Part shown: in pieces, positions 2,278 through 37,093 of the stretch
How the letters are laid out: each line of letters starts with the position of its first letter
Position numbering within the stretch: position 1 is the first letter of the stretch
Origin: Gemmatimonadaceae bacterium
GTDB taxonomy: Bacteria > Gemmatimonadota > Gemmatimonadetes > Gemmatimonadales > Gemmatimonadaceae
Direction of reading: 5' to 3'
Length of the DNA: 37,795 nt
Assembly (NCBI GenBank): GCA_016741895.1
Contig: JACVCT010000008.1
Location: 1 to 37,795 of the forward strand
The notes under the pieces: generated by a model
Told to the model about the DNA's origin: nothing
What the model saw: only the letters and a program-made list of their open reading frames with translations
The model's database searches: none
Program-made: the position numbers and the translations under genes

Positions 2278-2291
2278 ACCCCGTGTTTCCC

Positions 2292-3419
2292 ATGTCGCGC
2301 AATTCAACGTCTGCTCTTCGTTCGCTGCTTGGTCGCTGGTCGCGCCTGGCCCTCATCACCACCACCATCGGCGTGGCCGCGTGTGGTGATGATGCGATCA
2401 CCGAACCCACGCCGGCGCCCGGCTTTCTGGGTGGTGTGGCCGGCAATCGCGAGATCGGCATCGTCGTCAATTCCGGAACCAAGTCCCTCACCCTGTTCCA
2501 GCTCGGTGCGCCAACGGTCACGCAGCAGATTCCCCTTGGATCGAGCGCCACCGTGACGCCGGTGGGCTTCTCCCTGCGTGGCCGTCGCGCCGCCGTACCA
2601 CTCGGCAATGCGGCCAGCGTGGCGCTGGTTGATCTCAGCACGTCGAGCGTGAGTCGATTCTTCACCTTCCCGAGTGGCAATACCACGGGCTCGGTGTGGA
2701 GCAACGACACGACGGTGTTTGCCGCCAACACGGCAACCAACCGCGTTGGCCGCTTCTATGTCAATCAGACCGGCACGGACATCACCAGCAGTGTGGAGGT
2801 CGCGCCGTCGCCTACTGCGATGGCCTTTGCCGCGGGGCGTGTGCTGGCCGTGTCGGGCAACCTGGCCAACTTCGTACCCGTCGGTGAAGGTGTGGTCACG
2901 GCCATCAATCCCGTGACGATGGCCGTGATTGCCACAGTGCAGACCGGCGGCACCAATCCCACCGAAGCGGCCGTGGGCCCCGATGGATTGCTCTACGTGG
3001 TGAATACCGGCAACTACGTGACGCCGGCCAGCATGGCCATCATCGATCCGTCTAGCATGCAGCGCGTGGCGCTCATCAGCCCGCTGAGCGTGGGCGCCGG
3101 ACACATTGCGATCGACGCCGCAGGTCTCGCCTATATCTCGAGCTTCTCCGACGCCACCGTGGTCTTCAACACTCGCACCCGCACCTGGGTGCGTGGTCCG
3201 GACAATCCGGTGTGCGCCCGTCGTGCGGCCAGCAACACCTGTCGCGGTGCCGCATCGGCTACCGCCGCCGGCTCGGGCGTGATGTATCAGACGTTTTTCG
3301 GCAGTGCGGCCCAGGGTCTCGCGCCCTATGTGTTTGTCTACGACAAGGACACGTTCGTGTTGCGAGACAGCATCGCCGTGGGCAACGGCCCCATGTCGAT
3401 CACGGTCCGTACGTTCTGA
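2292..3419 (+). CDS. Lipoprotein with YncE-like beta-propeller repeats, candidate surface corrinoid-binding partner of BtuB
   Basis: The protein has 375 residues from the ATG at 2292, 14 bases after the receptor stop. An N-terminal signal ends in the lipobox VAAC with Cys31, so it should be a lipid-anchored protein. The rest consists of repeated beta-rich blades with phrases such as VALVDLSTSS, VTAINPVTM and MAIIDPSS, typical of YncE-like or NHL-like propellers. A Cys pair (VCARRAASNTC) may form a disulfide. In Bacteroides a propeller lipoprotein (BtuG) captures B12 and hands it to BtuB. The pairing here suggests an analogous role, but this is inference from architecture and position. An in-frame extension upstream to 2124 lies inside btuB and lacks a signal sequence, so I rejected it. 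Confidence 0.7.
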   Translation: MSRNSTSALRSLLGRWSRLALITTTIGVAACGDDAITEPTPAPGFLGGVAGNREIGIVVNSGTKSLTLFQLGAPTVTQQIPLGSSATVTPVGFSLRGRRAAVPLGNAASVALVDLSTSSVSRFFTFPSGNTTGSVWSNDTTVFAANTATNRVGRFYVNQTGTDITSSVEVAPSPTAMAFAAGRVLAVSGNLANFVPVGEGVVTAINPVTMAVIATVQTGGTNPTEAAVGPDGLLYVVNTGNYVTPASMAIIDPSSMQRVALISPLSVGAGHIAIDAAGLAYISSFSDATVVFNTRTRTWVRGPDNPVCARRAASNTCRGAASATAAGSGVMYQTFFGSAAQGLAPYVFVYDKDTFVLRDSIAVGNGPMSITVRTF

Positions 3420-3422
3420 TTC

Positions 3423-4463
3423 GTGTACACGGGCTGGGGTGAACCGGTGCGTGGTGCGGTGTCCGTTGCGCTGATCACCGACTGGTGTCTTGGCGAACCG
3501 CCAACCCGGTTTCATCCCACCGTGTGGATGGGCGCGTTCTTGCGCCGTGCACGCGCTCACGCGAATGGCATGGCGAGCGCGCGCCGCAATACGTCGGCAG
3601 TGCTCCGTGAGTTGGCGGCGGGAAGTGTGTGGGTGCTGCTCGGACTGCTGCTGGTGTGCGCCGCGTCGCTTGTGTTGACCGGGCTGCTCGCCTGGGTGCT
3701 CGCCGCTGCTGCTGTGCGCAGCGTCGGTGTGCCGGGCGTGCCGCGACACGGCGCCGGCGCTCCACTCGAGCCGGTGGCGGCGCTGACTCACGGTGTGTTG
3801 CTCAAGCCCGCTCTGGCGGCCCGTGCCCTGCTGGATGCGACCCGTGCGGTGCAGCAGGCTCTCACCATGCCCGACGAACACGCCGGTCTGGTGGAGGCGC
3901 GCCGTCAGCTGGCCTGGCATCTCGTGTCCCGTCCAACACAGGATCTTCGCGCCGACGAAGTGGCAGGCGCTGCGCTGGCCTCGCTGGCTGAGAATTTCTC
4001 CGACAGCATCGTGGCGCCACTACTGGCGTACCGTGTGGCCGGGCTGCCGGGCGCATACGCCTATCGCTTTGTGAACACGGCCGACGCCATGCTCGGGTAT
4101 CGCAGTACGGCGCTCGAATGGTTTGGCAAGCCCGCCGCCCGCCTCGATGATCTGTGCAATCTCGTGCCGGCGCGTGTGGCGGGCACGGCGTTGCTGCTGG
4201 CCAGCGTGTTGTGCAAGGCCTCACCACGGGGCGCATGGCGCTGCCTGCGTCAGGATGCGCGTCGCACACCAAGCCCCAATGGCGGCTGGCCCATGGCCGC
4301 GATGGCTGGTGCTCTGGGGGTCGTGCTGGACAAGCGTCAGACGTACACACTGAATGCGGCAGGTCGCGCGCCAACCGCCCACGATCTGATCGCCGGTCGT
4401 CGACTGGTGCGTATGGCGACCCTGCTGGTGGTGGTGGGCATTGAACTGTCCTACCTGAGCTGA
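3423..4463 (+). CDS. cbiB: Adenosylcobinamide-phosphate synthase CbiB/CobD family
   Basis: This is an integral-membrane enzyme that joins adenosylcobyric acid to the aminopropanol (phosphate) arm. The family pattern is clear: an N-terminal LITDWCLGEPPTRFHP segment, several hydrophobic helices, the signature ENFSDSIVAPLLAY, then FVNTADAMLGYRS, LDDLCNLVPARV and GGWPMAAMAGALG. The length (346 residues) is normal. The start is uncertain: GTG at 3423 overlaps the leader region without a ribosome-binding site, while GTG at 3447 has GGGGTGA upstream and would give 338 residues. It lies in the cobalamin operon directly before the PLP enzyme that would make its aminopropanol-phosphate substrate, as in many cobalamin clusters. 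Confidence 0.9.
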   Translation: MYTGWGEPVRGAVSVALITDWCLGEPPTRFHPTVWMGAFLRRARAHANGMASARRNTSAVLRELAAGSVWVLLGLLLVCAASLVLTGLLAWVLAAAAVRSVGVPGVPRHGAGAPLEPVAALTHGVLLKPALAARALLDATRAVQQALTMPDEHAGLVEARRQLAWHLVSRPTQDLRADEVAGAALASLAENFSDSIVAPLLAYRVAGLPGAYAYRFVNTADAMLGYRSTALEWFGKPAARLDDLCNLVPARVAGTALLLASVLCKASPRGAWRCLRQDARRTPSPNGGWPMAAMAGALGVVLDKRQTYTLNAAGRAPTAHDLIAGRRLVRMATLLVVVGIELSYLS

Positions 4464-4466
4464 CGC

Positions 4467-5540
4467 ATGCCCACACCTGCTTCGCATATGGCGCGGCTTG
4501 CGCCGGCGGTGCACGGCGGACGCGCTGCGTTGCCTGATGAGCAGACAGCGGTGCTCGACTTCAGCGTCTGCCTCAATGCCTATGGTCCTTCACCCGTGGT
4601 CCGTGAGGCCATGGCCGCGTGCGCCGTGGACGAGTATCCGGATCCCACGGCGCGGGCGGCGCGGAGGGCAGCGGCGGAGAGTTGGCGCTGTGATGCGGAC
4701 TGGCTCATGGTGGGCGCCGGCTCGGCGGAGCTGCTGCATGCCATCTGCCGCGCCTACCTCGCCCCTGGGCGTCGAGCTGTCGTGCTGCGTCCCTGTTTCG
4801 GGGAGTACGAACGTGCCGCGCTTCTGGCCGGCGCCTCCGTGCACGGCGTGCACGATGTGGCGGCCATGGTGGAATGGTTGGCGCACGACGTGCACGTGGC
4901 GTTCGTGGCCACACCGGAGAGTCCGAGCGGGCGCAGCATGTCGCGCGACGCGCTGGAGACGTTGGCCAATGCCTGCCTGGCGCACGACGTGCTGCTGGTG
5001 GTCGATCAGGCCTACGACGCCTTCACCCCCGCGCCGCTTGGCACTCCAATCTTCCCGGATCGTACACACGTCGTGCACCTGCGCTCCATGACCAAGGAGC
5101 ACGCCCTGGCCGGTGTGCGTGTGGCGTTTGCGCACGGACATCCTGGGGTGTTGGCGCAGATCGAGGCGGCCCGTGTGCCCTGGGCCAGCAGCCAGTTGGC
5201 CCAGGCGGCCGCGCAGGCCCTCTTCTCACCGGAGGCGCGCGCGCATGCGCGGGAGACGGTGCAGCGACTGCGCGCCGACAGTCTGCAGCTTGAGCTCGCG
5301 CTCCGTCGTCAGGGCGTCACGGTGTCCGCCAGCGATACACACTACCGCCTCATCGGTTGTCGCAGTGCCACCGACGCGCAGGACGCCTTGCTCCGGCATG
5401 AGCGGGTCCTGGTGCGTGACTGCACTTCCTTCGGCCTTCCGCGGCACATTCGCGTAGCGGCGCGACTTCCTCACGAAAACGCCAGCCTGTTGCGCGCCAT
5501 GCGCGCGCAGGCCACCCACTTCCAGACCGGCGATGACTGA
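4467..5540 (+). CDS. cobD: CobD-like threonine-phosphate decarboxylase (PLP, aminotransferase class I/II fold)
   Basis: The protein has 357 residues and the fold-type I PLP architecture of the histidinol-phosphate aminotransferase/CobD group. Visible motifs are an N-terminal LDFSVCLNAYG, the cofactor-binding VGAGSAELLHAI, the aspartate in VVDQAYDAF (about residue 180), and the Schiff-base lysine K210 in LRSMTKEHALAGVRVAF. CobD decarboxylates L-threonine-O-3-phosphate to aminopropanol phosphate for CbiB. Placement three bases after cbiB and before cobO supports this over histidinol-phosphate aminotransferase, but the families are close and sequence alone does not separate them fully. The stop overlaps the next start by eight bases. 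Confidence 0.8.
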   Translation: MPTPASHMARLAPAVHGGRAALPDEQTAVLDFSVCLNAYGPSPVVREAMAACAVDEYPDPTARAARRAAAESWRCDADWLMVGAGSAELLHAICRAYLAPGRRAVVLRPCFGEYERAALLAGASVHGVHDVAAMVEWLAHDVHVAFVATPESPSGRSMSRDALETLANACLAHDVLLVVDQAYDAFTPAPLGTPIFPDRTHVVHLRSMTKEHALAGVRVAFAHGHPGVLAQIEAARVPWASSQLAQAAAQALFSPEARAHARETVQRLRADSLQLELALRRQGVTVSASDTHYRLIGCRSATDAQDALLRHERVLVRDCTSFGLPRHIRVAARLPHENASLLRAMRAQATHFQTGDD

Positions 5541-6246
5541 ACGCAGAGCTCACACTCACGGCACCGGCACCGGGGTGCCGGACTCCAGCGCGCAAGACCA
5601 CAGTGGGCAGGACGCGCCGCGCACGGACCCGCTGCAGCAACCGACCGTCACGCGTCTCGCCAATGGTCGGCAGGTGCCCATCCCCAGGCAGAAGCGCCCC
5701 GGTCCCTATCGCGTGCCGCCACGCGCGCAGCGACATGGCTTGCTCATCGTCAACACCGGCGACGGCAAGGGCAAGACCACGGCGGCGCTTGGAGTGCTGC
5801 TGCGAGCCTATGGCCGCGGCATGGAAGTGGGCATGTATCAGTTCGTGAAGCGACTCACCAACACCGGTGAGCATCGCGTGGCGCGGCGCCTTGGTGTGGT
5901 CATGGAGGCGCTGGGGGCAGGCTGCACGGGCGCACGCAGCGTAACGGATACCGATATCGCACGGGCGCGGGCCGGTTGGCAGCGCGTGCAAGGCGTTCTT
6001 GCGGAAGGTCGCTACGACGTGCTCATCCTGGATGAACTGACCCTGCCCATGACCTGGGGCTGGCTCGACGAGCAGGACGTCATCGAGGCCCTGCGTGGTC
6101 GGGCACAGGGCACCCACGTCATTGTCACGGGTCGTCATGCCCCTGAGGCCCTGGTGGCTGCGGCCGATCTCGTGACGGACATGCGGGTCATCAAACATCC
6201 CTACCGCAGCGAGGGCCTCAAGGCGCAGGGAGGCATCGACGTATGA
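5533..6246 (+). CDS. cobO: CobO/BtuR-type corrinoid adenosyltransferase paralogue 1 (divergent lower-ligand loop, N-terminal extension)
   Basis: The 237-residue protein has a hydrophilic, probably disordered extension of about 67 residues and then a CobO/CobA P-loop domain. The Walker A is TGDGKGKTT (about 75-83), and VLILDEL (163-169) is the conserved strand after it. The family transfers the 5'-deoxyadenosyl group of ATP to Co(I) corrinoid. An oddity is that the family FTW triplet, present in the next gene as DGFTWLS, reads GAGCTGARS here. The Phe and Trp that in Salmonella CobA help form four-coordinate Co(II) are therefore replaced by Cys131 and Gly133. It overlaps both neighbours (ATGACTGA, then ATGA), so it is translated as part of the operon. 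It may have altered substrate preference or a non-catalytic role. Confidence 0.85.
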   Translation: MTERRAHTHGTGTGVPDSSAQDHSGQDAPRTDPLQQPTVTRLANGRQVPIPRQKRPGPYRVPPRAQRHGLLIVNTGDGKGKTTAALGVLLRAYGRGMEVGMYQFVKRLTNTGEHRVARRLGVVMEALGAGCTGARSVTDTDIARARAGWQRVQGVLAEGRYDVLILDELTLPMTWGWLDEQDVIEALRGRAQGTHVIVTGRHAPEALVAAADLVTDMRVIKHPYRSEGLKAQGGIDV

Positions 6247-6782
6247 GCACCGATCGCACAAGACGTCGCGGCCTGTTGCTGGTCAACACCGGAAACGGCA
6301 AGGGCAAGTCCACGGCCGCACTGGGCATTCTGGTACGGGCGGCGGGATACGACTTCTCCATCGGCATGTTCCAGTTCATCAAGAGTGCGGAGACGCGATA
6401 CGGCGAACACATTGCCGCGGAACTGCTTGGTGTGGACATCGTACCACTCGGCGACGGCTTCACCTGGCTTTCCGAAGACATCAATGCAGATCGGGCCCTC
6501 GCCGAGCGGGGCTGGCAGCGTGTGCGGGAGGTGATCGAGGCCGGGTCCTTCGACATCCTCATCCTCGATGAGCTCACCTACTGCCTGACCTATGGATGGC
6601 TCGAGGAAGAGGAGGTGCTGCGAGTACTGCGGGCGCGACCCTCGTGGATGCATGTGGTGGTCACGGGTCGCAACGCCTCACCCGCACTCATCGAGGCGGC
6701 AGACCTCGTGACGGAGATGCATCTCGTCAAGCATCCGTTCCGTGAGCAGGGCATTGGTGCGCAACCGGGTATCGAGCTGTGA
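6243..6782 (+). CDS. cobO: Cob(I)yrinic acid a,c-diamide adenosyltransferase, CobO paralogue 2 (canonical)
   Basis: This 179-residue protein is the compact, canonical form of the family. It has Walker A TGNGKGKST (about 16-24), the GMFQFIKS strand, the DGFTWLSEDI loop with Phe73 and Trp75, and ILILDELTY. It adenosylates Co(I) corrinoids on the way to adenosylcobalamin. It follows paralogue 1 in an ATGA overlap, and both keep the C-terminal KHPxRxxG and GI(E/D) ends, so they look like an old tandem duplication. As the copy with all expected residues it is the likely main adenosyltransferase of the operon. The stop overlaps the GTG of the next gene. Confidence 0.9.
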   Translation: MSTDRTRRRGLLLVNTGNGKGKSTAALGILVRAAGYDFSIGMFQFIKSAETRYGEHIAAELLGVDIVPLGDGFTWLSEDINADRALAERGWQRVREVIEAGSFDILILDELTYCLTYGWLEEEEVLRVLRARPSWMHVVVTGRNASPALIEAADLVTEMHLVKHPFREQGIGAQPGIEL

Positions 6783-8554
6783 CGCATACACGGACAGAAG
6801 GGGCCGCGTCGGTGCGCCTGCTGCTGGTGCGCCATGGAGAAACGGCGCACAATGCAACCGCTCGCTGCCAGGGCCAGCTTGACGTGCCCATGCAGGATGT
6901 CGGCGAACGACAGGTCCTGCGTTTGGCCAGCCGCCTGACATCGCCGGTGCTGGATGCCGTGGACGCCGTCTATACGTCGCCTCTGCTGCGCGCCTGGCGC
7001 ACCGTACAATTGCTACTGGGGGATCGCCAACGCCCCTGTGTGGATGCCCCGGAGTTGATGGAGCTGCACTACGGCAGTGTGCAGGGTCTGGCGGAAGCAT
7101 CGTGGCCGGATGCGCTCGGTGCAGACTGGCGTCGTGATCCCTGGCGGGTGTCGTTTCCGAACGGTGAGTCGCTGCCGGTGCTCCAAGCCCGTGTGCATCA
7201 TGTCTTGCGGCAGCTGACGCAGGCGCATGCCGGTCAGACCGTGATGCTGTCCACTCATGGACTGGTCATGCGGGTGATGCTTCAGGAAGCGCTGCGTCTC
7301 CCGCCTGCCGACTTCTGGCAGCTTCGCATTCCGAACGCGTCGGCGTGGTGGGTGTCGTGCAGCGCAGCGTCGGGACGTCTGAAGCTGGGCGATGTGCAGC
7401 GTGCCGAACCCCGGGTCACGGTGGCGGCGGCGCAAGCGACCATGGCGGACAAGACCATGCCGCGTGGCGCCATGGGAGAAGTCGAACGGGTGGCCGTGCA
7501 GGCAGCGGTGGTGCAGCAGACCCTGGAGCCGGTGATCGGTCGCGTGGGGCTGTGCATATTCGCGGCCGATCATGGTGTGACGGCGGAAGGCGTCAGCGCC
7601 TACCCGGCGGCGGTGACCGCGGAGATGACCCGCAACTTCGCGCGTGGCGGGGCGGCCATCAATGTGCTGGCGCGCGCACATGACATCTCGCTCGATCTGG
7701 TGGATGTTGGGGTGGATGGCTCGCTGGAGGCCTGGCCCGATCTGGTGCCGGCCAAGGTAGCGCATGGTACACACAACTTCCGTCGCGCAGCGGCCATGTC
7801 CGACGCCATGCTGGGTCAGGCGCTGGCAGTGGGTGCGGCGCGTGCACAGCGTATGCTGCGCAGCGGTGTGGATGCGCTCGCCCTCGGCGAGATGGGCATC
7901 GGCAACACCACCAGCGCCGCAGCGATGCTGGGTGCCATGACAGGCCTCCCGGCCGAGCGCACGGTGGGTGCCGGCACCGGCGTGCAGGGCGAACGCCTTC
8001 TCCACAAGCGTGAAGTGGTGGACGACGCGCTCGTATGGCATCGCTCAGACCTCGCCGCCGGCGGCGTGCCGCATGCGGACACGCGCGAGTGGCTGCGCCG
8101 TGTGGGGGGACTGGAGATTGCCGCCATGGCCGGCGCTGCCATGGCCGTGGTCGACCATCCCGTGCTGCTGGTGGCAGACGGCTTCATCTCCACGGTGGCC
8201 GTACTGGCGGCGGCGCGCATGCTGCACGAGTCGGCGGGGCCAGCCAATGCGTCGTCCACCTCCTTGTCGGCTTCTCCGTTTGCGTCTGCGCTGCTCGATC
8301 GTTTGGTGCTTTCGCACCGTTCCAGCGAGACCGGGCATGTCGAAGCCATCCGGGCACTCGACGAACTGCGTCGTGCCGCGCTGCACGGTGAATCCGCAGA
8401 TGGCGTAGTGCTACGGCCGTTGCTCGATCTCGGCATGCGCCTGGGTGAGGGCAGTGGTGCAGCCATGGCCGTACCGCTATTGCGATCGGCCACCGCGCTC
8501 ATGCGGCAGATGGCCACGTTCTCCGATGCGGGCGTGTCGACAGCGCTCACATGA
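6779..8554 (+). CDS. Fusion of alpha-ribazole phosphatase (CobC) and nicotinate-nucleotide:DMB phosphoribosyltransferase (CobT)
   Basis: The 591-residue protein starts at GTG 6779 in a GTGA overlap. Residues about 12-205 are a histidine-phosphatase domain, with the catalytic RHGE at 18-21 and a second histidine, His160, in LSTHGLVMR. Residues about 212-590 are CobT, shown by ADHGVTAEGVSAYP, GGAAINVLARA, the GEMGIGNTTSAAA loop with Glu371, RTVGAGTG, DGFIST, LSHRSSETGH and the GMRLGEGSGAAMA segment with the expected catalytic Glu557. CobT makes alpha-ribazole phosphate from DMB and nicotinate mononucleotide; CobC removes the phosphate before or after CobS. Joining the two consecutive steps in one chain is unusual. 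No stop or frameshift separates the domains. Confidence 0.9.
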   Translation: MTHTRTEGAASVRLLLVRHGETAHNATARCQGQLDVPMQDVGERQVLRLASRLTSPVLDAVDAVYTSPLLRAWRTVQLLLGDRQRPCVDAPELMELHYGSVQGLAEASWPDALGADWRRDPWRVSFPNGESLPVLQARVHHVLRQLTQAHAGQTVMLSTHGLVMRVMLQEALRLPPADFWQLRIPNASAWWVSCSAASGRLKLGDVQRAEPRVTVAAAQATMADKTMPRGAMGEVERVAVQAAVVQQTLEPVIGRVGLCIFAADHGVTAEGVSAYPAAVTAEMTRNFARGGAAINVLARAHDISLDLVDVGVDGSLEAWPDLVPAKVAHGTHNFRRAAAMSDAMLGQALAVGAARAQRMLRSGVDALALGEMGIGNTTSAAAMLGAMTGLPAERTVGAGTGVQGERLLHKREVVDDALVWHRSDLAAGGVPHADTREWLRRVGGLEIAAMAGAAMAVVDHPVLLVADGFISTVAVLAAARMLHESAGPANASSTSLSASPFASALLDRLVLSHRSSETGHVEAIRALDELRRAALHGESADGVVLRPLLDLGMRLGEGSGAAMAVPLLRSATALMRQMATFSDAGVSTALT

Positions 8555-9390
8555 ACCGCGAGCTGCGCGCCTTCTCGGCGGCCTGCACCTTCATGACGCG
8601 CATCCCCACCTGGCGCGTTGTGGCACATGACGTGGCGGATCTGCCGGCCTCCGCCGCCTACTTCCCGCTGGTTGGACTGCTTGTGGGGGCCGCCGGTGCG
8701 GTGGTATGGTGGCTGGCCTCCTGGCTTTGGTCACCGTGGATTGCCATACTGCTCTCCATGGCGGCGACCATTCGCCTCACGGGCGCCTTTCACGAGGATG
8801 CCCTCGCCGATTCGCTCGACGGGTTCGGGGGCGGATGGACGCGTGAGCAGGTGCTGCACATCATGAAGGACAGCCGCGTGGGTTCGTATGCGCTGGTCGG
8901 CATGTGCGTGGCTCTGTTGCTCAAGGCCGCGCTGCTCGTGGAGTTCACCACGATGGCGCCGCTGCCAGTCACGGGAATCATGGGGCGCTGGCCTGCGGTG
9001 GTGACGGCCATGCTGGCAGCGCATGTGCTTGCGCGGGCGTCCAGTGTTGCGCTCATCGGTGCGCTGCCCTACGTGCGGAGGGACGATGCCGCCACGCGCG
9101 CCAGTGCCGGCCGACCGTTTGTGGCGGGCGTCTCGCGAGCTCGCGTGATTCTGGCTCTCGCGTGTGCCGTGATGCTCAGCGTCGTGCTACTGGGCAGCGC
9201 GGTTTGGACCGTGCTTGTTGCGGCGGCCGCCGCAACTGCGCTGGCTGCGCGCTATTTCCGTGCCCGGATAGGTGGGATTACCGGTGATGCGCTGGGCGCT
9301 GCGAATCAGGTGGTGGAACTGGTGGTGTATCTCACGCTCGCGGCCAGTGTGCAGCACGGGTCGTTCCTCCAGACCGTGGTACGGTCATGA
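8551..9390 (+). CDS. cobS: Adenosylcobinamide-GDP ribazoletransferase (cobalamin synthase) CobS
   Basis: CobS is the membrane enzyme that joins adenosylcobinamide-GDP to alpha-ribazole (or its phosphate), closing the nucleotide loop. The 279-residue product has several hydrophobic helices. It carries the diagnostic HEDALADSLDGFGGG acidic motif followed by LHIMKDSRVGSYAL, an AYFPLVGLLVG helix near the N-terminus, and GGITGDALGAANQVVEL near the C-terminus. Length is slightly above the usual 250-260. Its ATG overlaps the CobC-CobT stop and its own stop overlaps the next gene (both ATGA), so the three nucleotide-loop genes are translationally coupled. Confidence 0.93.
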   Translation: MNRELRAFSAACTFMTRIPTWRVVAHDVADLPASAAYFPLVGLLVGAAGAVVWWLASWLWSPWIAILLSMAATIRLTGAFHEDALADSLDGFGGGWTREQVLHIMKDSRVGSYALVGMCVALLLKAALLVEFTTMAPLPVTGIMGRWPAVVTAMLAAHVLARASSVALIGALPYVRRDDAATRASAGRPFVAGVSRARVILALACAVMLSVVLLGSAVWTVLVAAAAATALAARYFRARIGGITGDALGAANQVVELVVYLTLAASVQHGSFLQTVVRS

Positions 9391-12412: not shown

Positions 12413-13879
12413 TCAGGAGGCCGACCGGCCCAGATAGCTGGCCACCCGCTCGGCAGTCAGCACACCATTGGCGACGCAGTCACCAACGGATACGCCGAGG
12501 TGATAATTGCCCGCCAGGTAGAGCCCCGGGTGCTCCGCTTCGGTGCGGGCCACTGCATCCTTGACCTCCTGGTACCCCAGCAGGTACTGCGGAATGGCGC
12601 GTGGCCAGTAGGCATGATGCGTGTACACCGGGTCGCCCGTCACACCCAGCAGGTCGTGCAGATCCCGCAGCACGGCTGGCAGCAGCGCCTCGCTGCTCAG
12701 GGCGGCCTGCTGCGGCGCTCTCGCCCCACCCACAAACACCGTGAGCGTGACGTGCCCCTCGGGGGCGCGGGCAGGGAACAGCGAGGAGCTGAACAGCACT
12801 CCGAGCACACTGCGCTGTTCGACACGCGGCACCAGCATGCCAAATCCGTCGAGCGGATGTGCCACCTGCTGCCTCGTGAAGCCCAGCGTGAGCGTGCTGA
12901 CGGCCGGATAGCGCACATGTTCAATGGGCGCCGCAAATCGCCGCAGGGCCGCCGGCAACTCCATGGCGGCCAGTGCATGCGCGGGGGTAGCCAGCACCAC
13001 CGTGTCCGCAATCAGTGTGTGGGATTTCCCGTCATCGCCCGACTCCACCACCCAGCGGCCCTCGTGGGCATGCAGATGCCGCAGAGGACGCGAGAGATGC
13101 AAGGACGTCCCCAGCGACGCCGCTAGGGCGTCGGGCAGCGTCTGCACGCCATCCACGAACGACACCAGACGCGCCGGCGAGGCGGGCGCCGACGGTTGAC
13201 CCGACCCACCGGACCGCGCGCGCCGACGCTGCGCCATGAGCCCACGCGAGAGCGAGCCATGCACCATCTCGAGCTCGGTGACCCGCGGAAACGCGTGTGC
13301 CATGCTGAGCGTGTCCGGGTCGCCGGCAAAGATGCCGGAGACAAACGGATCCACGGCGTAGTCCAGCACCTCACGCCCGAGGCGGCGGCGGACAAACGAG
13401 GCGATGGACTCTTCACCGGGGCCCCGGTAACGCGGCACCAGTGGCTCGAGCAGGACACGCAGCTTGGCTCTGGTGGAGAGCAGGCGCGTGGTCAGCATGG
13501 CCCTGGGCGTGAGCGGAAACGCGTGCAGGTCCCCATCACGCACGACGTAACGCTTGTTGGCGCTGGCGTCGGGCTCGACCACATCCTGCTGCAGATCGAG
13601 TGCGCTGAGCAGCTGCTCCACCACCGGCGAACTGACGAAGGAGTTGGGCCCATGCTCTGCCACAAAGCCGTCGGCATGCGTGGTGCGCATCACGCCGCCA
13701 GCCTGCGCCGCGGCATCGAGCACCGTGACCGACACGCCCTGCTGTCGCAGCGCATGCGCGGCCGTCAGCCCGGTAATGCCGGCCCCCACCACCACGGCCG
13801 AGCAGCGACCGTCCGGATGCGGCCCGTGGGCTGATCCGTCGTGGTCCTGCTGTTCGGGGCGGCCGGTGAGGGTGCCCAT
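12413..13879 (-). CDS. hemY: Protoporphyrinogen oxidase HemY/HemG type (FAD, O2-dependent)
   Basis: The enzyme oxidises protoporphyrinogen IX to protoporphyrin IX, the branch point of haem and bacteriochlorophyll. From the ATG at 13879 the protein has 488 residues. The FAD-binding dinucleotide fold is VVVGAGITGLTAAHAL with GGVMRTTHADGFVAEHGPNSF after it, and the C-terminal FAD segment is YLAGNYHLGVSVGDCVANG. The middle contains a short Ser/Gly/Ala-rich insertion (RRRARSGGSGQPSAPASP). The start at 13879, two bases after the hemF stop, is preferred; an in-frame ATG at 13972 would overlap hemF by 91 bases with a non-conserved extension. Last gene of the tetrapyrrole operon. Confidence 0.92.
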   Translation of the reverse strand: MGTLTGRPEQQDHDGSAHGPHPDGRCSAVVVGAGITGLTAAHALRQQGVSVTVLDAAAQAGGVMRTTHADGFVAEHGPNSFVSSPVVEQLLSALDLQQDVVEPDASANKRYVVRDGDLHAFPLTPRAMLTTRLLSTRAKLRVLLEPLVPRYRGPGEESIASFVRRRLGREVLDYAVDPFVSGIFAGDPDTLSMAHAFPRVTELEMVHGSLSRGLMAQRRRARSGGSGQPSAPASPARLVSFVDGVQTLPDALAASLGTSLHLSRPLRHLHAHEGRWVVESGDDGKSHTLIADTVVLATPAHALAAMELPAALRRFAAPIEHVRYPAVSTLTLGFTRQQVAHPLDGFGMLVPRVEQRSVLGVLFSSSLFPARAPEGHVTLTVFVGGARAPQQAALSSEALLPAVLRDLHDLLGVTGDPVYTHHAYWPRAIPQYLLGYQEVKDAVARTEAEHPGLYLAGNYHLGVSVGDCVANGVLTAERVASYLGRSAS

Positions 13880-13881
13880 GC

Positions 13882-14916
13882 TCAGCTGCTGCTCAGCCAG
13901 TCGCGCGGGGCGAGCATGGCCATGAGGCGCGATTCGAACGAGCCGGGAGCATAGCGCGGGGCGTACTGCCACATGGCGAGCGGCGGGAGGCTCATGAGCA
14001 CACTCTCCACGCGTGCATTGGTCTGCAGACCGAAGGTCGTGCCACGATCATGCACCAGGTTGAACTCCACGTAGCGGCCGCGACGCACCAGCTGGAACTC
14101 GCGCTCGCGCTCGCCGAAGGGTTCATCGCGACGCCGCTCCACGATGGGCTCGTAGGCAAAGCGCAGCACACGCGCCACGTCGGACACGAAGGCCTGGAGG
14201 GCCTCGGCATCACGGCCGTGAGTGGGGTCGTCGGGCCGCAGATGATCGAAGAAGATGCCGCCGCAGCCGCGCGCTTCGTTGTCCCGATGCGTGTTGACGA
14301 AGTAGCGATCGCACCAGGCCTTGAAGTCGGCGTAGAACGCCGGATGGTGCCGCTCGCACATGCGCGCGAGCGCCTGGTGGAAGGTGCGCGGATCGTCCTC
14401 GTGCGGATAGAACGGCGTCAGATCCGTGCCGCCGCCAAACCAGCGATCGGTCACGCGTCCCTGTTCATCGGTGAGCTCGAAGTAGCGCACGTTGAGGTGC
14501 ACGGTGGGCACCATGGGGCTGCGCGGATGCACCACCAGGCTCACGCCGGTAGCAAAGAACATCGTGCTGCCCTGCGTTGCGCCGGTGCCGCCGAGGCGCC
14601 TGGCCGCGGCCTCCGGCAGCGTGCCCATGACGGCCGAGCGATTGATGCCGGCCTTTTCGAAGGTCACGCCATCGGTCATCACACGGGCCACGCCACCGCC
14701 GCCACCGGGCCGCTCCCAGCGGTCCTCGATGAAGGTGCCCCCGCGATCGAGGCGGCCGAAGAACGACGTCAGTTCGTCATGCAGACCCGCCATCCATCGC
14801 GTGATGTCGGCGCGATGACTCGAAGTCACCGGTCGACCGCTGCTGCGTGATGGCGGCTCACCGGATGAGGAGGCGAGCACCGACGACGATTCGCCGGCGG
14901 GCAGCGTGAGGGTCAT
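13882..14916 (-). CDS. hemF: Coproporphyrinogen III oxidase, aerobic, HemF
   Basis: HemF uses O2 to decarboxylate two propionates of coproporphyrinogen III, giving protoporphyrinogen IX. The 344-residue product has the family blocks FFATGVSLVVHPRSPMVPTVHLNVRYFE, WFGGGTDLTPFYPHEDD, ARGCGGIFFDHL, and EFNLVHDRGTTFGLQTNARVESVLMSLPP. The chosen start at 14916 overlaps the hemE stop by ATGA; a longer in-frame start (14985) would add 23 low-complexity residues inside hemE. The first 35-40 residues are Ser/Pro-rich and not conserved. No oxygen-independent HemN is seen here, so this pathway section needs oxygen. Confidence 0.95.
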   Translation of the reverse strand: MTLTLPAGESSSVLASSSGEPPSRSSGRPVTSSHRADITRWMAGLHDELTSFFGRLDRGGTFIEDRWERPGGGGGVARVMTDGVTFEKAGINRSAVMGTLPEAAARRLGGTGATQGSTMFFATGVSLVVHPRSPMVPTVHLNVRYFELTDEQGRVTDRWFGGGTDLTPFYPHEDDPRTFHQALARMCERHHPAFYADFKAWCDRYFVNTHRDNEARGCGGIFFDHLRPDDPTHGRDAEALQAFVSDVARVLRFAYEPIVERRRDEPFGEREREFQLVRRGRYVEFNLVHDRGTTFGLQTNARVESVLMSLPPLAMWQYAPRYAPGSFESRLMAMLAPRDWLSSS

Positions 14917-16007
14917 GCGATCTCCGCCAGTTGCGGGGCGCGCCCGCTCGCCCGCTTTGCGGCGTCGAGGCGCTCCTCGGTCCACTCCCAGGACTGCACG
15001 GCATCGATGAAGGCGCGGGCATGATCGGGATTCATGTCCGGCAGGATGCCGTGCCCGAGATTGGCCACGTGACCCACCGGGCCAAAGGCCTGGATCATGT
15101 CACGCGTGCGCCGCTGGATCTCGCTCACCGGCGCGTAGAGTGCGCAGGGATCGAGGTTGCCCTGCAGGGCCACCGAGAAGGGATCGGTGAGGCGACGCGC
15201 TTCGTGCGGCGTGGTGTGCCAGTCGACGCCAATGGCGTCGGCATGGGTGGCCGCGGCGATCTCGCTCATCGCCCAACCTGCGCCGGGCGCGAACACAATC
15301 ACCGGCACACCGGCCTCACGCGCGCGCTGCGCGGCCTTGGCGAGATAGGGCAGCGCAAAGGTGCGGAACTCCTGCGGACCCAGCGCGCCGGCCCACGACT
15401 CGAAGAGCTGCACCACCTGCGCGCCGGCTTCCACCTGCGCCACCAGGAAATCGCCCACCGCCGTGGCCAGCTTGTCGAGCAGGGCATGCGCCACATCGGG
15501 CGCTTCGAACAGCATCTTCTTGGCCACCGCGAACTGCTTGGTGCCCTTGCCCTCCACCATGTACGCGGCCAGCGTCCACGGCGAGCCCGCGAAGCCGATG
15601 AGCGGCACCCGATCGTTGAGCGCGCGGCGTGTCATGCGCAGCGCGGCCAGCATGTAGCCGAGCTGATCCTGGGGATCGACCGGATGCAGCTTGGCCACGT
15701 CGGCCGCCGTGCGCAGCGGCGACGGAAACTGCGGCCCCACGCCTTCGTCCAGCGTGAGGTGCATGCCCATGGCTTCCGGCACCACGAGGATGTCACTGAA
15801 GATGATGGCCGCGTCCACCCCGACGAGGTCGATGGGCTGCAGCGTGACTTCGGTGGCCAGTTCCGGCGTGCGGCACATGGTGAGGAAGTCGGAACCGGCA
15901 CGCACCGCGCGGTACTGCGGCAGGTAGCGACCGGCCTGACGCATCATCCACACCGGGGGACGGGACACCGGTTCACGGCGCAGGGCGCGCAACAACAAGT
16001 CGTTCAT
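14913..16007 (-). CDS. hemE: Uroporphyrinogen decarboxylase HemE
   Basis: HemE removes four acetate carboxylates from uroporphyrinogen III to give coproporphyrinogen III. The 364-residue product has the signature PPVWMMRQAGRYLPQYR near the N-terminus and FSDILVVPEAMGMHLTLDEGVGP, which carries the catalytic aspartate. It also has the family GFAGSPWTLAAYMVEGKGTKQF and the C-terminal NLGHGILPDMNPDHARAFIDAVQ. Length is standard. It is joined by ATGA overlaps to hemA upstream and hemF downstream, forming a consecutive pathway block. Confidence 0.97.
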   Translation of the reverse strand: MNDLLLRALRREPVSRPPVWMMRQAGRYLPQYRAVRAGSDFLTMCRTPELATEVTLQPIDLVGVDAAIIFSDILVVPEAMGMHLTLDEGVGPQFPSPLRTAADVAKLHPVDPQDQLGYMLAALRMTRRALNDRVPLIGFAGSPWTLAAYMVEGKGTKQFAVAKKMLFEAPDVAHALLDKLATAVGDFLVAQVEAGAQVVQLFESWAGALGPQEFRTFALPYLAKAAQRAREAGVPVIVFAPGAGWAMSEIAAATHADAIGVDWHTTPHEARRLTDPFSVALQGNLDPCALYAPVSEIQRRTRDMIQAFGPVGHVANLGHGILPDMNPDHARAFIDAVQSWEWTEERLDAAKRASGRAPQLAEIA

Positions 16008-17404
16008 GGCAACGGGGACAGGGACGGCTGAAGCGAGGCGAGATCCGCATCGGTGCCCACACGGGACACGGCCTCGCGCTGCGGCGCGGACAGCTCACGC
16101 GCATCGGAGGCGACAGGGACATCGGCCAGTGCGCCGTTCGGCGCAAACATCTCCAGCAACATCATGGCATGCTGATCGAGGGGTTCGCCACGCTGGACGG
16201 CGCGGCGGAGTGCGGCCATGGGACCGGCCAGCAGCTTGGCCACAATCCGCGCGGCCGCGCGTTCGGCCACATGCGCATCCTTCGCATGATACGCCACTTC
16301 ACGCCGCGCCACATCCTCCAGCGCGGCGCGCAGGGGCCGGATGGCGGCCCGGGCCGGCATGTTGGCCAGCCAGTCGAGAAAGGCCTCGACCTCCTGCGCG
16401 CAGATCTCTTCCGCCTGCGGCACCGCCTCCCGGCGCATGCTTTCGGCGGCCAGGACCGGCTGCGAGAGCGAATCGAGATCCACCAGCGTGACCCCGGGCA
16501 GGGCCGTGGCTGCCGGGTCCACGTTGCGCGGCAGACTCAGGTCGAGCAGGAGCAGGGCGTAGCCGGTGTTGGCGCAGGCTTCACGCGCGAGGGCAAGCCG
16601 CGGCGCTTCGAGCACGGGGATCTCGCTGCCCGTGGCCACCACCACCACGTCGGCCATGGCCGCTTCCACGTGCCGCGTCTCCCACTCGGCGGCGCGGCCT
16701 CCCACCATGGCGGCCAGGGTCACGGCGTTCTCGAAGGTGCGATTGACGATCACGAGATCGCGCGCACCGAGCTTGTGCAGCTGTTTGGCGGCGCGGGCAC
16801 CGGTCTTGCCAGCTCCCACCACCACACAGCGCGCCATGGCCAGATCACCAAAGCGCTGCGCCGCCGTGAGTGCCGCCTCGGCACCCACCGAATTGCGGCC
16901 CGCAGTGAGCGCGGTTTCGGTCTGCACGCGCTTGCCGGCGCGCAGCGCCGTTTCGAACAGACGATGCAGCACCGGACCGGTGGCCGAATGCCCCGCGGCC
17001 GAGGCCCCGTTGGCTGCCCGCTTGTAGGCCGTCTTCAGCTGACCGAGAATCTGGCCGTCACCCAGCACCTGCGATTCGAGACCCGCCGCAATGCGGATGA
17101 TGTGTGACGCCGCCTCACGCCCCTGCCGCTGACAGGCCACCCGCAGCAGCGCCTCGCCCTCGGCGCGCGTGCGCATCCAGCGACGCGCCAGGACCTGCAC
17201 GCTGCGCGCGATGACCTCGGGCGCGCTGCTCGCCACCCAGGCATAGAGCTCGGTGCGATTGCAGGTCGAGATGAGCGCCGCTTCGGTGATGACGTCGGTG
17301 CGTACCGTCTGGTACAGCTGCGCCAGACGCTCCTCCGACAGGTGGAAGCGCTCGCGCGTGGCGACATCGGCATGGCGGAAATCGATCGCGATCGAGATCA
17401 GCAT
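16004..17404 (-). CDS. hemA: Glutamyl-tRNA reductase HemA (C5 pathway)
   Basis: This enzyme reduces glutamyl-tRNA(Glu) to glutamate-1-semialdehyde, the committed step of the C5 route to 5-aminolevulinate. The 466-residue product has the catalytic Cys48 in ISTCNRTELYAW, the conserved GLESQVLGDGQILGQLK segment, and an NADP-binding fold VVGAGKTGARAAKQL followed by VIVNRTFENA. The use of GluTR rather than 5-aminolevulinate synthase separates this host from alphaproteobacterial phototrophs. It starts 25 bases after bchP on the same strand, so a bacteriochlorophyll gene and the first haem gene appear co-transcribed. hemL, hemB, hemC and hemD are not in the window. Confidence 0.95.
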   Translation of the reverse strand: MLISIAIDFRHADVATRERFHLSEERLAQLYQTVRTDVITEAALISTCNRTELYAWVASSAPEVIARSVQVLARRWMRTRAEGEALLRVACQRQGREAASHIIRIAAGLESQVLGDGQILGQLKTAYKRAANGASAAGHSATGPVLHRLFETALRAGKRVQTETALTAGRNSVGAEAALTAAQRFGDLAMARCVVVGAGKTGARAAKQLHKLGARDLVIVNRTFENAVTLAAMVGGRAAEWETRHVEAAMADVVVVATGSEIPVLEAPRLALAREACANTGYALLLLDLSLPRNVDPAATALPGVTLVDLDSLSQPVLAAESMRREAVPQAEEICAQEVEAFLDWLANMPARAAIRPLRAALEDVARREVAYHAKDAHVAERAAARIVAKLLAGPMAALRRAVQRGEPLDQHAMMLLEMFAPNGALADVPVASDARELSAPQREAVSRVGTDADLASLQPSLSPLP

Positions 17405-32664: not shown

Positions 32665-32997
32665 ATGGAACCGATGACCTGGGGACTGCTGGCTGCTGCG
32701 GCAGGAGGCGCTGGACTGTGGTACGTGATGAAGCGTCGGCGCGAGGTGGCCTGCACGGTCGATCTCGAGATGACGCATGACCACTTCCACGCGCATGTGG
32801 ACCTCAAGGGTGTGTACGTCGATCCCGGCGACGAGGTGCTGGTGCGCAATACGCCCAGTCGCATCGCGTTCGGGACACAGACCACGTTCGACTCCAGCGC
32901 CGAGGTCCGTCGGGCCAGCTGGCTCAAGCGGCAGGTGGTGAAGCTCACCGGTGGCACCGCCATTCACGAACTCTACGAAGTCGGCTTCGAAGGCTGA
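32665..32997 (+). CDS. Conserved-type small membrane-anchored protein upstream of acsF (candidate cyclase accessory protein)
   Basis: The 110-residue protein starts at ATG 32665, after a clear GAAGGAGA ribosome-binding site, 28 bases after bchM and eight before acsF. One N-terminal transmembrane helix (WGLLAAAAGGAGLWYVM, about residues 6-22) is followed by KRRR, predicting a cytosolic domain of about 85 residues. That domain is beta-rich with DLEMTHDHFHAHVDL (four His), GDEVLVRNTP and a C-terminal end of ELYEVGFEG. I do not recognise a described domain with certainty. The position just before acsF is like that of BciE (rsp_6110), an AcsF cyclase subunit in alphaproteobacteria, so a cyclase partner role is a reasonable but unproven guess. 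Confidence 0.8.
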   Translation: MEPMTWGLLAAAAGGAGLWYVMKRRREVACTVDLEMTHDHFHAHVDLKGVYVDPGDEVLVRNTPSRIAFGTQTTFDSSAEVRRASWLKRQVVKLTGGTAIHELYEVGFEG

Positions 32998-34109: not shown

Positions 34110-35570
34110 ATGGCAAAATCTGCTGAACTTCCCGTGCGCATCTGGCGCGCTCTCGGCACCCGATGGATGCCGTTTGCCGACGTGGGCAGTGAGGACGTGC
34201 CGCTGTCGCGGCTCTTCCGGCTGTCGCTGTTTCAGCTGGCAGTGGGGATGGTGCAGACGCTGTTCGTGGGCACCCTCAACCGGGTGATGATCCTCGAACT
34301 CCGGGTGCCGGCGTCGCTGGTGGCCATCATGCTGGCCATCCCGCTGCTGGCTGCGCCTTTCCGCGCGCTGGTGGGGTTCAAGTCGGATACACATCGCAGC
34401 ATCCTGGGCTGGCGTCGGGTGCCCTATCTCTGGATTGGCACACAGCTGCAGTTTGGCGGTCTGGCCATCATGCCGTTTGCGCTGCTGCTGCTGTCGGAGA
34501 AGGGCAGTGGTGGCCCGGTGTGGATTGCCTACGCGGCGAGCGCCGTGGCCTTTCTGCTGGCGGGCGCCGGCGCGCATACCACGCAGACGGCGGGTCTGGC
34601 GCTGGCCACTGATCTGGTGAGCGAGGACAAGCGGCCGCGCGTGATCGCGCTGATGTACCTGATGATGCTGGTGGGTACGCTGGTGAGCGCGCTCATTCTT
34701 GAACAGCTGCTGCAGCCGTTCTCGGCGATGCGGCTGATTCAGGTCATTCAGGGAGCAGCGCTGTTCACGATCGTGGTGAACGCCTTTGCGCTCTGGAAGC
34801 AGGAAGCCAGACAGCGCGGCGTGGTGGAGTACAAGAAGGGCGAGCGTCGTCCCCAGTTCCGTGAAGCGTGGCGGACGTTCGCTTCCGGTGGTCAGGCGGT
34901 GGGACTTCTGGTGGCGTCCGGCCTCGGGTTCTTCGCGTTCAACCTGCAGGACGTGCTGCTCGAGCCCTATGGTGGCGAGATCCTGCATTTCACCGTTGCA
35001 GGTACCACGGCACTGACAGGCATCATGGCCTTTGGCGCGGTGCTGGCCTTTGTGTGGAGTGCCACACAGGACCGCACCGTGAAGGCCCCGCTTCGGCTGG
35101 CGTCGCAGGGTGTGGTGGTGGGCCTGCTGGGATTTGCCATGATCACGGCGGGCAGCATGATGAGCACCCACCCCATCTGGGCGCCGTTCTTCTTTCGTTT
35201 CGGCGTGATGCTCATTGGTTTTGGTGAGGCGCTCTTTGGTGTGGGGACGCTGTCATTCGCCATGGGTATGCGTGATGCCACGCAGCACGGCATTGCACTG
35301 GGCGCGTGGGGCGCGGTGTTTGCCACCGCCGAAGGGCTGTCGTTTGCCCTGAGCGGCCTCATGAAGGATGCGTTGTCGCACCTCGGTGCCACGCAACCGG
35401 TTGGAAGCTGGTTGGCGCAGCCTGCTGCGCCCTATACGGCGGTGTACGGCACGGAAATCGTGGTCTTGCTGATCACCCTGGTTGTTCTGGGCACTGTGGG
35501 TCGCCGCGCGGCGAACCAGGTGTCAGTTGGAGTTGCACGCCCCTTCGGTCTCGCGGACATCCCGGCGTGA
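34110..35570 (+). CDS. lhaA: LhaA/PucC-family light-harvesting 1 assembly protein
   Basis: The 486-residue polytopic protein (about 12 helices) is of the LhaA (ORF477) type that precedes puhA in purple bacteria and is needed for LH1 assembly and chlorophyll delivery. Landmarks are [86 protein letters not shown] and [26 protein letters not shown] ribosome-binding site precedes ATG 34110. It is a paralogue of the pucC-like gene at 18680-20050. It is followed 28 bases later by the reaction-centre H genes. Confidence 0.94.
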
Positions 35571-35598: not shown

Positions 35599-35802
35599 AT
35601 GATGGACTATCTCGATGGTGCCCAGATCGCGTTGTACGCGTTCTGGTTGTTTTTCTTCGGGTTGATCATCTACCTCCGCAAGGAAGACAAGCGCGAAGGT
35701 TATCCGCTCGAGTCGCCGCAGGGTCCGCGTGAGGGCTGGCCGAAGCCGGCCACGCCGAAGTCCTACATCCACCGCCACCACGGCGACGAGGGCGCGCACT
35801 GA
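35599..35802 (+). CDS. puhA: Photosynthetic reaction centre H subunit, N-terminal (transmembrane) part, as a separate gene
   Basis: This 67-residue protein corresponds to the first quarter of PuhA. One transmembrane helix (about residues 8-27, [19 protein letters not shown]) is followed by the family motif REGYPLES and a Pro-rich segment ending [20 protein letters not shown] at 35588-35591 precedes ATG 35599 (a second ATG is at 35602). The gene ends in TGA, which overlaps the next ATG (TGATG). In most phototrophs these residues are continuous with the cytoplasmic domain; here they are encoded separately in another frame. My recollection is that the Gemmatimonas phototrophica complex also has a two-part H subunit. 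Confidence 0.9.
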
Positions 35803-36347
35803 TGTCCAGCGTCAAGTATGTACCAGCTGACAGCTACAACGGCTCGCCGGTGGTGCCCACGGGCAACCCCATGATCGATGGGGTTGGCCCCGCCGCGTGG
35901 AACGAAGCGCGACGCGATGAGCCGGACGTGACGTATGATGGACGTCCGAAGCTCGTGCCCATGCGGATGGACGCCGCATTCAGCATTGCGAAGGGCGATC
36001 CCGATCCGCGCGGTCTGCCGGTGGTGGCCGCCGACAAGGTGGTGGCCGGCAAGGTCGTGGACGTGTGGGTCAATCGCTCGGAGCCGCAGGTGTCCTTCTA
36101 CGAGGTGCAGCTCAGCGGCAGCGAGCGTCGGGTGTTGCTGCCGTCCGGCTACGTGCAGTGGCCCAACTTCGGGCTCTGGGGCAATGATCGGCTGCTCGTG
36201 AAGTCCATCACCTCGGCGCAGTTTGCCAATGTGCCCGGCACGGCGCGCGAAGACCGCATCACGCTGCTCGAGGAAGACCGCATCTCGGCGTACTATGCCG
36301 GCGGTCATCTGTATGCCACGTCGTCCCGTTCCCAGCCCCTCATATGA
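35802..36347 (+). CDS. puhA: Photosynthetic reaction centre H subunit, C-terminal (cytoplasmic) part, as a separate gene
   Basis: The 181-residue protein matches PuhA from about residue 95 onward: TGNPMIDGVGPAAW, ARRDEPDVTYDGRPKLVPMR, VAGKVVDVWVNRSEP, FYEVQLSG, and the C-terminal ITLLEEDRISAYYAGGHLYA. It has no transmembrane helix and must dock on L/M and the separate helix. It starts at ATG 35802, one base into the previous stop, so it is translationally coupled. Compared with R. sphaeroides, the Glu173 position is kept (RSEP), but His126 and His128, the proposed proton-entry pair, fall at Asp and Arg. The coupling overlap and its own start argue against a simple frameshift. Confidence 0.9.
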   Translation: MSSVKYVPADSYNGSPVVPTGNPMIDGVGPAAWNEARRDEPDVTYDGRPKLVPMRMDAAFSIAKGDPDPRGLPVVAADKVVAGKVVDVWVNRSEPQVSFYEVQLSGSERRVLLPSGYVQWPNFGLWGNDRLLVKSITSAQFANVPGTAREDRITLLEEDRISAYYAGGHLYATSSRSQPLI

Positions 36348-37093
36348 ATCCGCCGGCGCTCGCTTCCGATTCGCAGGCGCCGGTCGGGCACGCGCCCGAC
36401 GCTGCGCCGTCCACGCCACGGTACATCCGTGGCGTGCCGCATCCTCTTCCTGACGGTGAGCAGCTGCTGTGGGAAGGGGCGCCGTCGATGCGGGCCGTAG
36501 CCACGCATGTCTTTCACTGGCGCCTCGTTGTGGCCTACTTCGTGGGCATGTTCGCGTTGTGGGCCATGACGACGGACACGCCGCGTGGCACGGAAGTCTG
36601 GTGGTCGGAAGCGACGCTGCGGCTGGCGCTCGGGGTCTTTGTTCTGCTCTGCGTGATGGGGCTTTCGCGGGCGGTGGCCAGCACCTCGTGGTACGCCATC
36701 ACCTCCCGCCGCATTGTCATGCGCGTGGGCATGGCCTTCCCGATGTCCATCAACATTCCCTTCACGCTGCTGCAGACGGCGGGACTAGGCGTGTTCCGTG
36801 ATGGCACCGGACAGGTGGCGCTTGGACTCGTGCCGGGTCAGCGGCTGGCCTACATCGCACTCTGGCCGCACTGCCTGGTGTGGAACATCAATCATCCGGC
36901 GCCGGTGCTGCGTGGCCTCGAGCAACCCGAGATGGTGGCCAAGCTGCTGGCCACGGCCGTGGCCGATGCGGCGGAGGCGGACCTCGACGCCAGCATCGAG
37001 CGTGGAGCGACGGATACCGCCGCACGTCCCGAACGCGGTGGCCCCTCGCGTCCCGCAGTCCGTCAGGCGCGCACCGCGCCGGCAGGAGCATGA
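36344..37093 (+). CDS. puhB: Photosynthetic complex assembly protein PuhB
   Basis: PuhB is a membrane protein needed for efficient reaction-centre assembly. The 249-residue product begins with a Pro/Ala-rich tail and then RGVPHPLPDGEQLLWEGAPSMRAVATHVFHWRLVVAYF, the family opening. Two hydrophobic helices follow (about 58-77 and 92-110), and then a bPH2-like domain with SWYAITSRRIVMRVGMAFPMSINIPF and YIALWPHCLVWNINHPAPVLRGL. The last 40 residues are Ala/Arg-rich and not conserved. It is coupled by ATGA overlaps to both puh neighbours. Confidence 0.93.
   Translation: MNPPALASDSQAPVGHAPDAAPSTPRYIRGVPHPLPDGEQLLWEGAPSMRAVATHVFHWRLVVAYFVGMFALWAMTTDTPRGTEVWWSEATLRLALGVFVLLCVMGLSRAVASTSWYAITSRRIVMRVGMAFPMSINIPFTLLQTAGLGVFRDGTGQVALGLVPGQRLAYIALWPHCLVWNINHPAPVLRGLEQPEMVAKLLATAVADAAEADLDASIERGATDTAARPERGGPSRPAVRQARTAPAGA

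Follow-up and report, generated by a model that had tools for sequence, protein, structure and literature searches.

The H subunit of the photosynthetic reaction centre is known to be made in two pieces in phototrophic Gemmatimonadota. Passages of a 2025 paper (PMC12817894) describe puhA as divided into two genes, puhA1 and puhA2, a feature specific to Gemmatimonadota, and report that a transmembrane Ht and a cytoplasmic Hc were borne out by the fitting in Gemmatimonas groenlandica. The same passages name 7O0W as the complex of G. phototrophica, place both the split and pufA2 before the divergence of Gemmatimonas and Pseudogemmatithrix, and speculate that assembly of the complex was possible only once puhA had been split. 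RC-Hc is described as a partner of RC-U in G. phototrophica in an excerpt of PMC10214105. As for gene order, two cluster types, I and II, are described in an excerpt of PMC9426454, the main text of which does not mention puhA anywhere, and an excerpt of PMC7844134 gives the position of acsF between bchFNBHLM and lhaA-puhABC as consistent in the phylum. Among the open-access texts searched, as far as the passages returned extend, the split is discussed in PMC12817894 only. The two-gene H subunit is a published feature and not new; what is added here is the wider distribution of the split and its order relative to pufA2.

The window, that is, the whole stretch of DNA analysed here, comprises 37,795 nucleotides of a Gemmatimonadaceae bacterium (contig JACVCT010000008.1, assembly GCA_016741895.1). 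An earlier note made from its sequence had claimed that puhA is split into two genes that keep family motifs right up to the split. The first part is borne out by the two ORFs at the locus (Table 1) and by all 43 puhA-bearing Gemmatimonadota genomes described below. The locus passes the Pfam cut-offs of the PuhA domains, the PRCH N-terminal region and the PRC-barrel, and it does so in two ORFs rather than in a single continuous chain. PRCH (PF03967) is divided over both genes with 72.9 and 60.5 bits (cut-off 27), with model positions 4-68 in puhA1 (E 3.6e-20) and 83-133 in puhA2 (E 2.5e-16), and the PRC-barrel (PF05239) is present in puhA2 (34.7 bits, cut-off 21.2; E 1.8e-8). The second part of the claim stands in that PRCH is matched on both sides of the junction, and is slightly too strong because 14 PF03967 positions in the linker have no match in either gene. 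The membrane helix and the REGYPL motif are contained in Ht, for which a second ATG at 35602 would give 66 residues instead of 67, and puhA2 is read in the -1 frame relative to puhA1. We take the PUCC-family gene upstream of puhA1 to be lhaA from published gene order.

Table 1 Features of the split puhA locus in the window.
Feature	Position	Strand	Basis and remarks
acsF, upstream of lhaA	33006..34091	+	TIGR02029, 439.6 bits
lhaA (assumed), PUCC-family, upstream of puhA1	34110..35570	+	PF03209, E 6e-121
puhA1 = RC-Ht, transmembrane part of reaction-centre H subunit	35599..35802	+	ORF, 67 aa; start ATG 35599, 67 codons, stop TGA 35800-35802 (sequence and ORF reading)
Shine-Dalgarno-like GAGGG	35788..35792	+	within puhA1 end, ahead of puhA2 start; anti-SD duplex -6.4 kcal/mol
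TGATG junction	35800..35804	+	puhA1 stop and puhA2 start overlap by one base (A)
puhA2 = RC-Hc, cytoplasmic part of H subunit	35802..36347	+	ORF, 181 aa; ATG at 35802, 181 codons, stop TGA 36345-36347
puhB	36344..37093	+	NF040894 (puhB_PGC), 155.3 bits, cut-off 110; ATG (36344) overlaps puhA2 stop as ATGA

Elsewhere in the window, at 46-9390 and 12413-17404, cobalamin-type and haem genes lie beside the photosynthesis genes. The former include a BtuB-like receptor, cbiB, cobD-like, cobC-cobT and cobS-like genes, several of them under curated cut-offs, and the latter hemA, hemE and genes for coproporphyrinogen oxidase and protoporphyrinogen oxidase. The cobC-cobT gene, which shares the window with the split photosynthesis gene, is itself a fusion: a single 591-aa ORF (6779-8554) in which an alpha-ribazole phosphatase-like (CobC) domain at residues 14-190, under NCBIfam's cut-off, is joined to a CobT phosphoribosyltransferase domain at residues 215-482.

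To place the locus in its phylum, 395 Gemmatimonadota genomes, a sample from a larger group, were searched with Hc. Matches were obtained in 74 genomes, of which 43 are puhA (E 2.2e-32 or better); we assigned the remaining 31 (best E 6.4e-9) to PRC-barrel proteins. In 43/43 puhA-bearing genomes, which are non-independent samples and mostly look like fragmented drafts, Ht and Hc have an ORF each. The comparison of junctions across phototrophic Gemmatimonadota that the earlier note had called for thus returned two ORFs every time. With start codons chosen by script, five kinds of junction were found: a 1-nt overlap (32 genomes), a 4-nt overlap (4), a 3-nt in-frame gap (5), and single gaps of 19 nt (L036) and 50 nt (L033). 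The junction stop codon is TGA in 40 genomes, TAG in two and TAA in one. Ht has 90-116 residues in eight genomes (L031, L032, L033, L035, L037, L038, L039 and L043) and 61-69 in the other 35; the C-terminal tails of the long Ht proteins are partly Pro/Ala-rich. Between GYP and GNPM lie 57-70 residues in fused proteins (52 of 53 rows counted) versus 45-100 in split ones, a range that leaves out L011 (value 39, misread motif). Constraint on the freed ends seems weaker, particularly in the eight long-Ht genomes.

The position of acsF varies among these loci. It precedes lhaA in the window and in L033, L036, L040, L041, L044 and L068, as well as in L042, where it is cut by the contig end. In seven loci outside the window's family (L031, L032, L034, L037, L038, L039 and L043) it lies downstream of the puh genes, as it does in the fused betaproteobacterial loci L073 and L074. 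It was not found in the stretch fetched for L035, and L028-L030 are too short to give its position. Since both arrangements occur with a split puhA, the split is common to both types. A small unnamed gene stands directly before acsF in the window (32665-32997), and the two adjoin in 13/13 other Gemmatimonadota loci showing both, with acsF before lhaA or after puhC. Because they are adjacent at either position, the small gene and acsF seem to move as one unit. In L073 and L074 acsF is present without a match to the small gene, and L042 shows only its contig-cut acsF.

Relatives from outside and inside the phylum were compared among the best 80 of 539 loci in a contig scan. Twenty-nine of these 80 belong to the Gemmatimonadota group, as assigned by identity and contig, a few under other titles; 28 are split, many of them on the same contigs as in the survey of 395 genomes, and L060, cut by a contig end, was dropped from the split count. 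The other 51 of the best 80 are labelled Proteobacteria, apart from one Myxococcota and a few doubtful names, and carry puhA as one ORF without exception (51/51). They include the gammaproteobacterial MAG locus L118 (2902-3468), in which a 188-aa puhA ORF jumps in mid-helix to GNPM; this may be a real internal deletion or a misassembly. Three wider searches, judged mostly by open-frame length, yielded no split either. In the phylum of a Myxococcota MAG (377 genomes), five genomes match and four have puhA in open frames of 281-406 aa, which also matched the Ht profile; the fifth match, G716 (E 4.3e-4), we regard as a chance hit to a PRC-barrel. In the order of a betaproteobacterial MAG (349 genomes), matches occur in 42 genomes, 41 of them with open frames of 256 aa or more; G1119 was rejected as a split puhA, being cut by the end of its contig. 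In the order of a Thiocapsa MAG (195 genomes), open frames of 253 aa or longer are present in all 75 matching genomes, with an additional 44-aa piece at a contig edge in G1226. As far as we looked, within the genomes searched, the split is confined to Gemmatimonadota.

The distribution of pufA2, the gene linked to the outer antenna ring, is narrower than that of the split. With a profile built from five PufA2 proteins, full-length PufA2 was detected in 28 of 43 genomes, namely in 5 of a set of 20 Gemmatimonadota (108-118 bits, these five being the profile sources) and in 23 of 23 others (77-114 bits). Both species with solved structures have pufA2 and the double ring. In the window's genome, the pufA2 gene lies at G000:C301:12598-12765 (113.8 bits), on the contig that also encodes PufL and PufM. 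pufA2 was not found in 13 of the 43 genomes (G245, G170, G135, G393, G281, G319, G192, G151, G093, G101, G100, G344 and G288), in which the best match reached 15-30 bits over 31-38 of 54 positions and fell on the pufA beside pufL. A spacing of some 12-30 nt, with no gene in it, separates pufB from pufA in 12 of these genomes; in G288 the absence of an intervening gene is read from coordinates alone. G336, whose puf genes are mostly missing, and G145 were left unjudged; two relatives of G145 within its genus have pufA2. Since 13 of 43 split-puhA genomes are without detected pufA2, pufA2 does not define the split. Moreover, as the split is wider than pufA2, it is probably older, and the joint dating given in the cited passages of PMC12817894 can be refined. 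The main reading against this order is that pufA2 is ancestral and was then lost repeatedly; such a history needs several losses on the PufL+PufM tree, in which the five pufA2 holders form one group (100/99).

That tree (42 rows; bootstrap not fully settled), built without G401 and G748, which have no PufL/PufM match, and without G336, which has a partial one, also bears on whether puhA was split once or twice, as a single branch (96/91) sets all 18 Gemmatimonadota apart. A quick free PuhA tree of joined Ht+Hc with fused PuhA (43 + 53 rows) suggests instead that puhA was split twice independently, in the lineage of G135, G393 and G281 with its in-frame 3-nt gap and in the rest. Two changes are required on this tree, since L040-L042, on long branches, are placed next to Thiococcus pfennigii (96% SH-aLRT). 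However, holding the 43 together against 51 fused rows gave a log-likelihood 11 units above that of the free tree (p-AU 0.7), a value that leaves a single clade unrejected and does not by itself show the clade. L118 was left out of both trees, and L104 and L127 also of the one-clade test. The junction type and stops of G135, G393 and G281 are unlike most others, but the 3-nt in-frame gap recurs in L030 and L034, these three genomes share the acsF-lhaA order of the window, and their Ht ends in His-stop as in 31 others. Gemmatimonadales are scattered in PufL or PufM trees in the excerpt of PMC9426454, which would also favour two events. Taken together, we regard two fissions as improbable, and one fission appears to be the better reading.

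Because puhA is fused in 51/51 outside loci, the Gemmatimonadota group together in the PufL+PufM tree, and 13 split genomes are without detected pufA2, a single split that preceded pufA2 is the most likely history. The evidence thereby argues against a tie between the split and the double antenna ring. We think it likely that the fission of puhA is the oldest lineage-specific change of the cluster examined, a founding event, and that the double ring came later in one branch, so that the split would be no accommodation to it. Perhaps every line sampled has kept the split because assembly in a foreign host goes better with two small pieces. If so, the ends freed by the split could change, as the wider spacing between the two motifs in split proteins would illustrate.

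At the junction, an anti-SD duplex at or below -5 kcal/mol precedes Hc in 42/43 genomes, with a mean of -8.9 over the 43 versus -3.1 at positions inside Ht genes, 25% of which reach -5 kcal/mol; the test is weaker than it appears, the background being drawn from the same genes and the rows being related. L031 has no good SD-like stretch before Hc (-3.0). The overlap and the SD-like stretch suggest that Hc may be translationally coupled to Ht, and coupling would be expected to be weaker across the gaps of L033 and L036. Alternatively, programmed frameshifting or stop-codon readthrough could make one fused H chain from the two frames. In many genomes the Hc frame continues without a stop for some distance ahead of its ATG, and in five it is also the frame of Ht. 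Nevertheless, TGA, TAG and TAA are all used as the junction stop, 40/43 genomes lack an X XXY YYZ heptamer within the 60 nt preceding the stop, and of the 38 genomes with Ht and Hc in different frames, 12 have an Hc frame that stays open for at most 27 nt before the ATG. The heptamers that do occur fit poorly: that of L004 and L005 lies about 58 nt upstream, beyond the 24 nt over which their Hc frame is open, and that of L040, about 37 nt upstream, belongs to a genome that is already in frame. No conserved frameshift or readthrough signal was found at the junctions of the 43 genomes. Given the varied stops, the missing conserved heptamer, the short open stretch of the Hc frame in those 12 genomes, and the deposition of Ht and Hc in the PDB as separate chains, recoding was rejected as very unlikely.

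A sequencing or assembly error near 35800 that breaks one intact puhA, which the earlier note had set as its refutation, has next to no probability. In favour of an error, the draft assembly that contains the window is fragmented (426 contigs), and genes overlapping by one base can resemble a frameshift. Yet the identical junction is found in G181 (Hc 97%, Ht 100% identical), five genomes have both parts in frame with a stop and a 3-nt spacer, which an indel would not yield, and Ht and Hc are exactly as long as their 7o0u counterparts; the split junctions of 43/43 genomes refute the error and in practice rule it out. Equally negligible is a decaying puhA pseudogene, of which a split is often an early sign: it was rejected on the evidence of selection and structure, as Ht and Hc are both under purifying selection (Nei-Gojobori dN/dS 0 to 0.21 for Ht and 0.008 to 0.20 for Hc, hence at most 0.21 for both parts in 13/13 pairs), the pufL, pufM, bchN, bchB, bchL and acsF frames are open in the window's genome, and both chains are present in the complexes of relatives.

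The preferred reading is that the locus encodes a genuinely two-piece H subunit. In it, the product of puhA1 is short and consists of a single membrane helix plus the surface segment that follows, and that of puhA2 is a soluble PRC-barrel cap. Ht and Hc would dock on PufL/PufM as the one-chain H does elsewhere, with docking probably taking the place of the H linker. Hc would have its own ribosome-binding site, embedded in the terminal part of puhA1, and would probably be initiated there by ribosomes coming straight from the Ht stop, which would keep production of the two in step. The fission would have occurred once, in the founding photosynthesis gene cluster of the sampled phototrophic Gemmatimonadota, followed by pufA2 in one branch. 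We are highly confident in this explanation as a whole, which joins a genuine two-piece H, a probable coupled start of Hc, and a single fission before pufA2. The ORFs, their conservation, the sites and the distribution come from this analysis and the two chains from structures of relatives solved by others, whereas coupling, single origin and order are what we infer.

H is one chain in the purple bacteria compared and two pieces in every phototrophic Gemmatimonadota genome sampled. The two-piece H offers a natural test of the role of the H linker and of the assembly of a complex acquired across phyla. If the split predates the outer antenna ring, each of these novelties can be investigated without the other, and a divided puhA would serve as an easily read sign that the photosynthesis gene clusters of the phylum share a single origin.

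Among described systems, single-chain purple-bacterial PuhA (3wmm, presumably of Thermochromatium tepidum, and 1dxr, presumably of Blastochloris viridis) has the same domains in the same order as Ht plus Hc, in one chain there and from two genes here. Ht matches 3wmm (1.5e-17) and Hc matches both 1dxr (4.8e-50) and 3wmm (1.6e-49), with about 15 residues of 3wmm between 73 and 89 matched by neither gene. The closest counterparts are the RC-Ht and RC-Hc of G. phototrophica (PDB 7o0u, 7o0v, 7o0w and 7o0x), the same chains with the same lengths of 67 and 181 aa. In 7o0u, H1 (67 aa) and H2 (181 aa, 'RC-Hc') are separate chains, and the adjacent, separate Ht and Hc genes of the window match the solved chains over their full length (7o0u_H1, E 1.9e-37; 9h22_H, 6e-33; 7o0u_H2, E 1.3e-99). 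The earlier note had mentioned a two-part H in G. phototrophica and proposed a two-piece subunit. The mention was right, 7O0W being the complex of that species with both chains, and the proposal gains support from Ht and Hc being separate chains of one complex in near relatives. G. phototrophica is nevertheless another species: Ht and Hc of the window are 82% and 78% identical to those of L005, the locus that encodes the 7o0u sequences. A full-length Hc was found in 17 other genomes of the window's genus, one of which encodes the Ht of 7o0u, but not in 6 searched genomes of the genus; letter for letter, the Ht of G039 equals 7o0u_H1 and that of G074 equals 9h22_H. In 9h22 and 9h19, chain H is the 'Ht' and chain K the 'Hc' sub unit of the reaction centre; both entries are taken to be of G. 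groenlandica from the subject of PMC12817894, not from a record. These entries and the puhA1/puhA2 of that paper's excerpts show the same split as the window. Those excerpts name only Gemmatimonas and Pseudogemmatithrix, whereas in the present survey the split is also found in genomes without detected pufA2.
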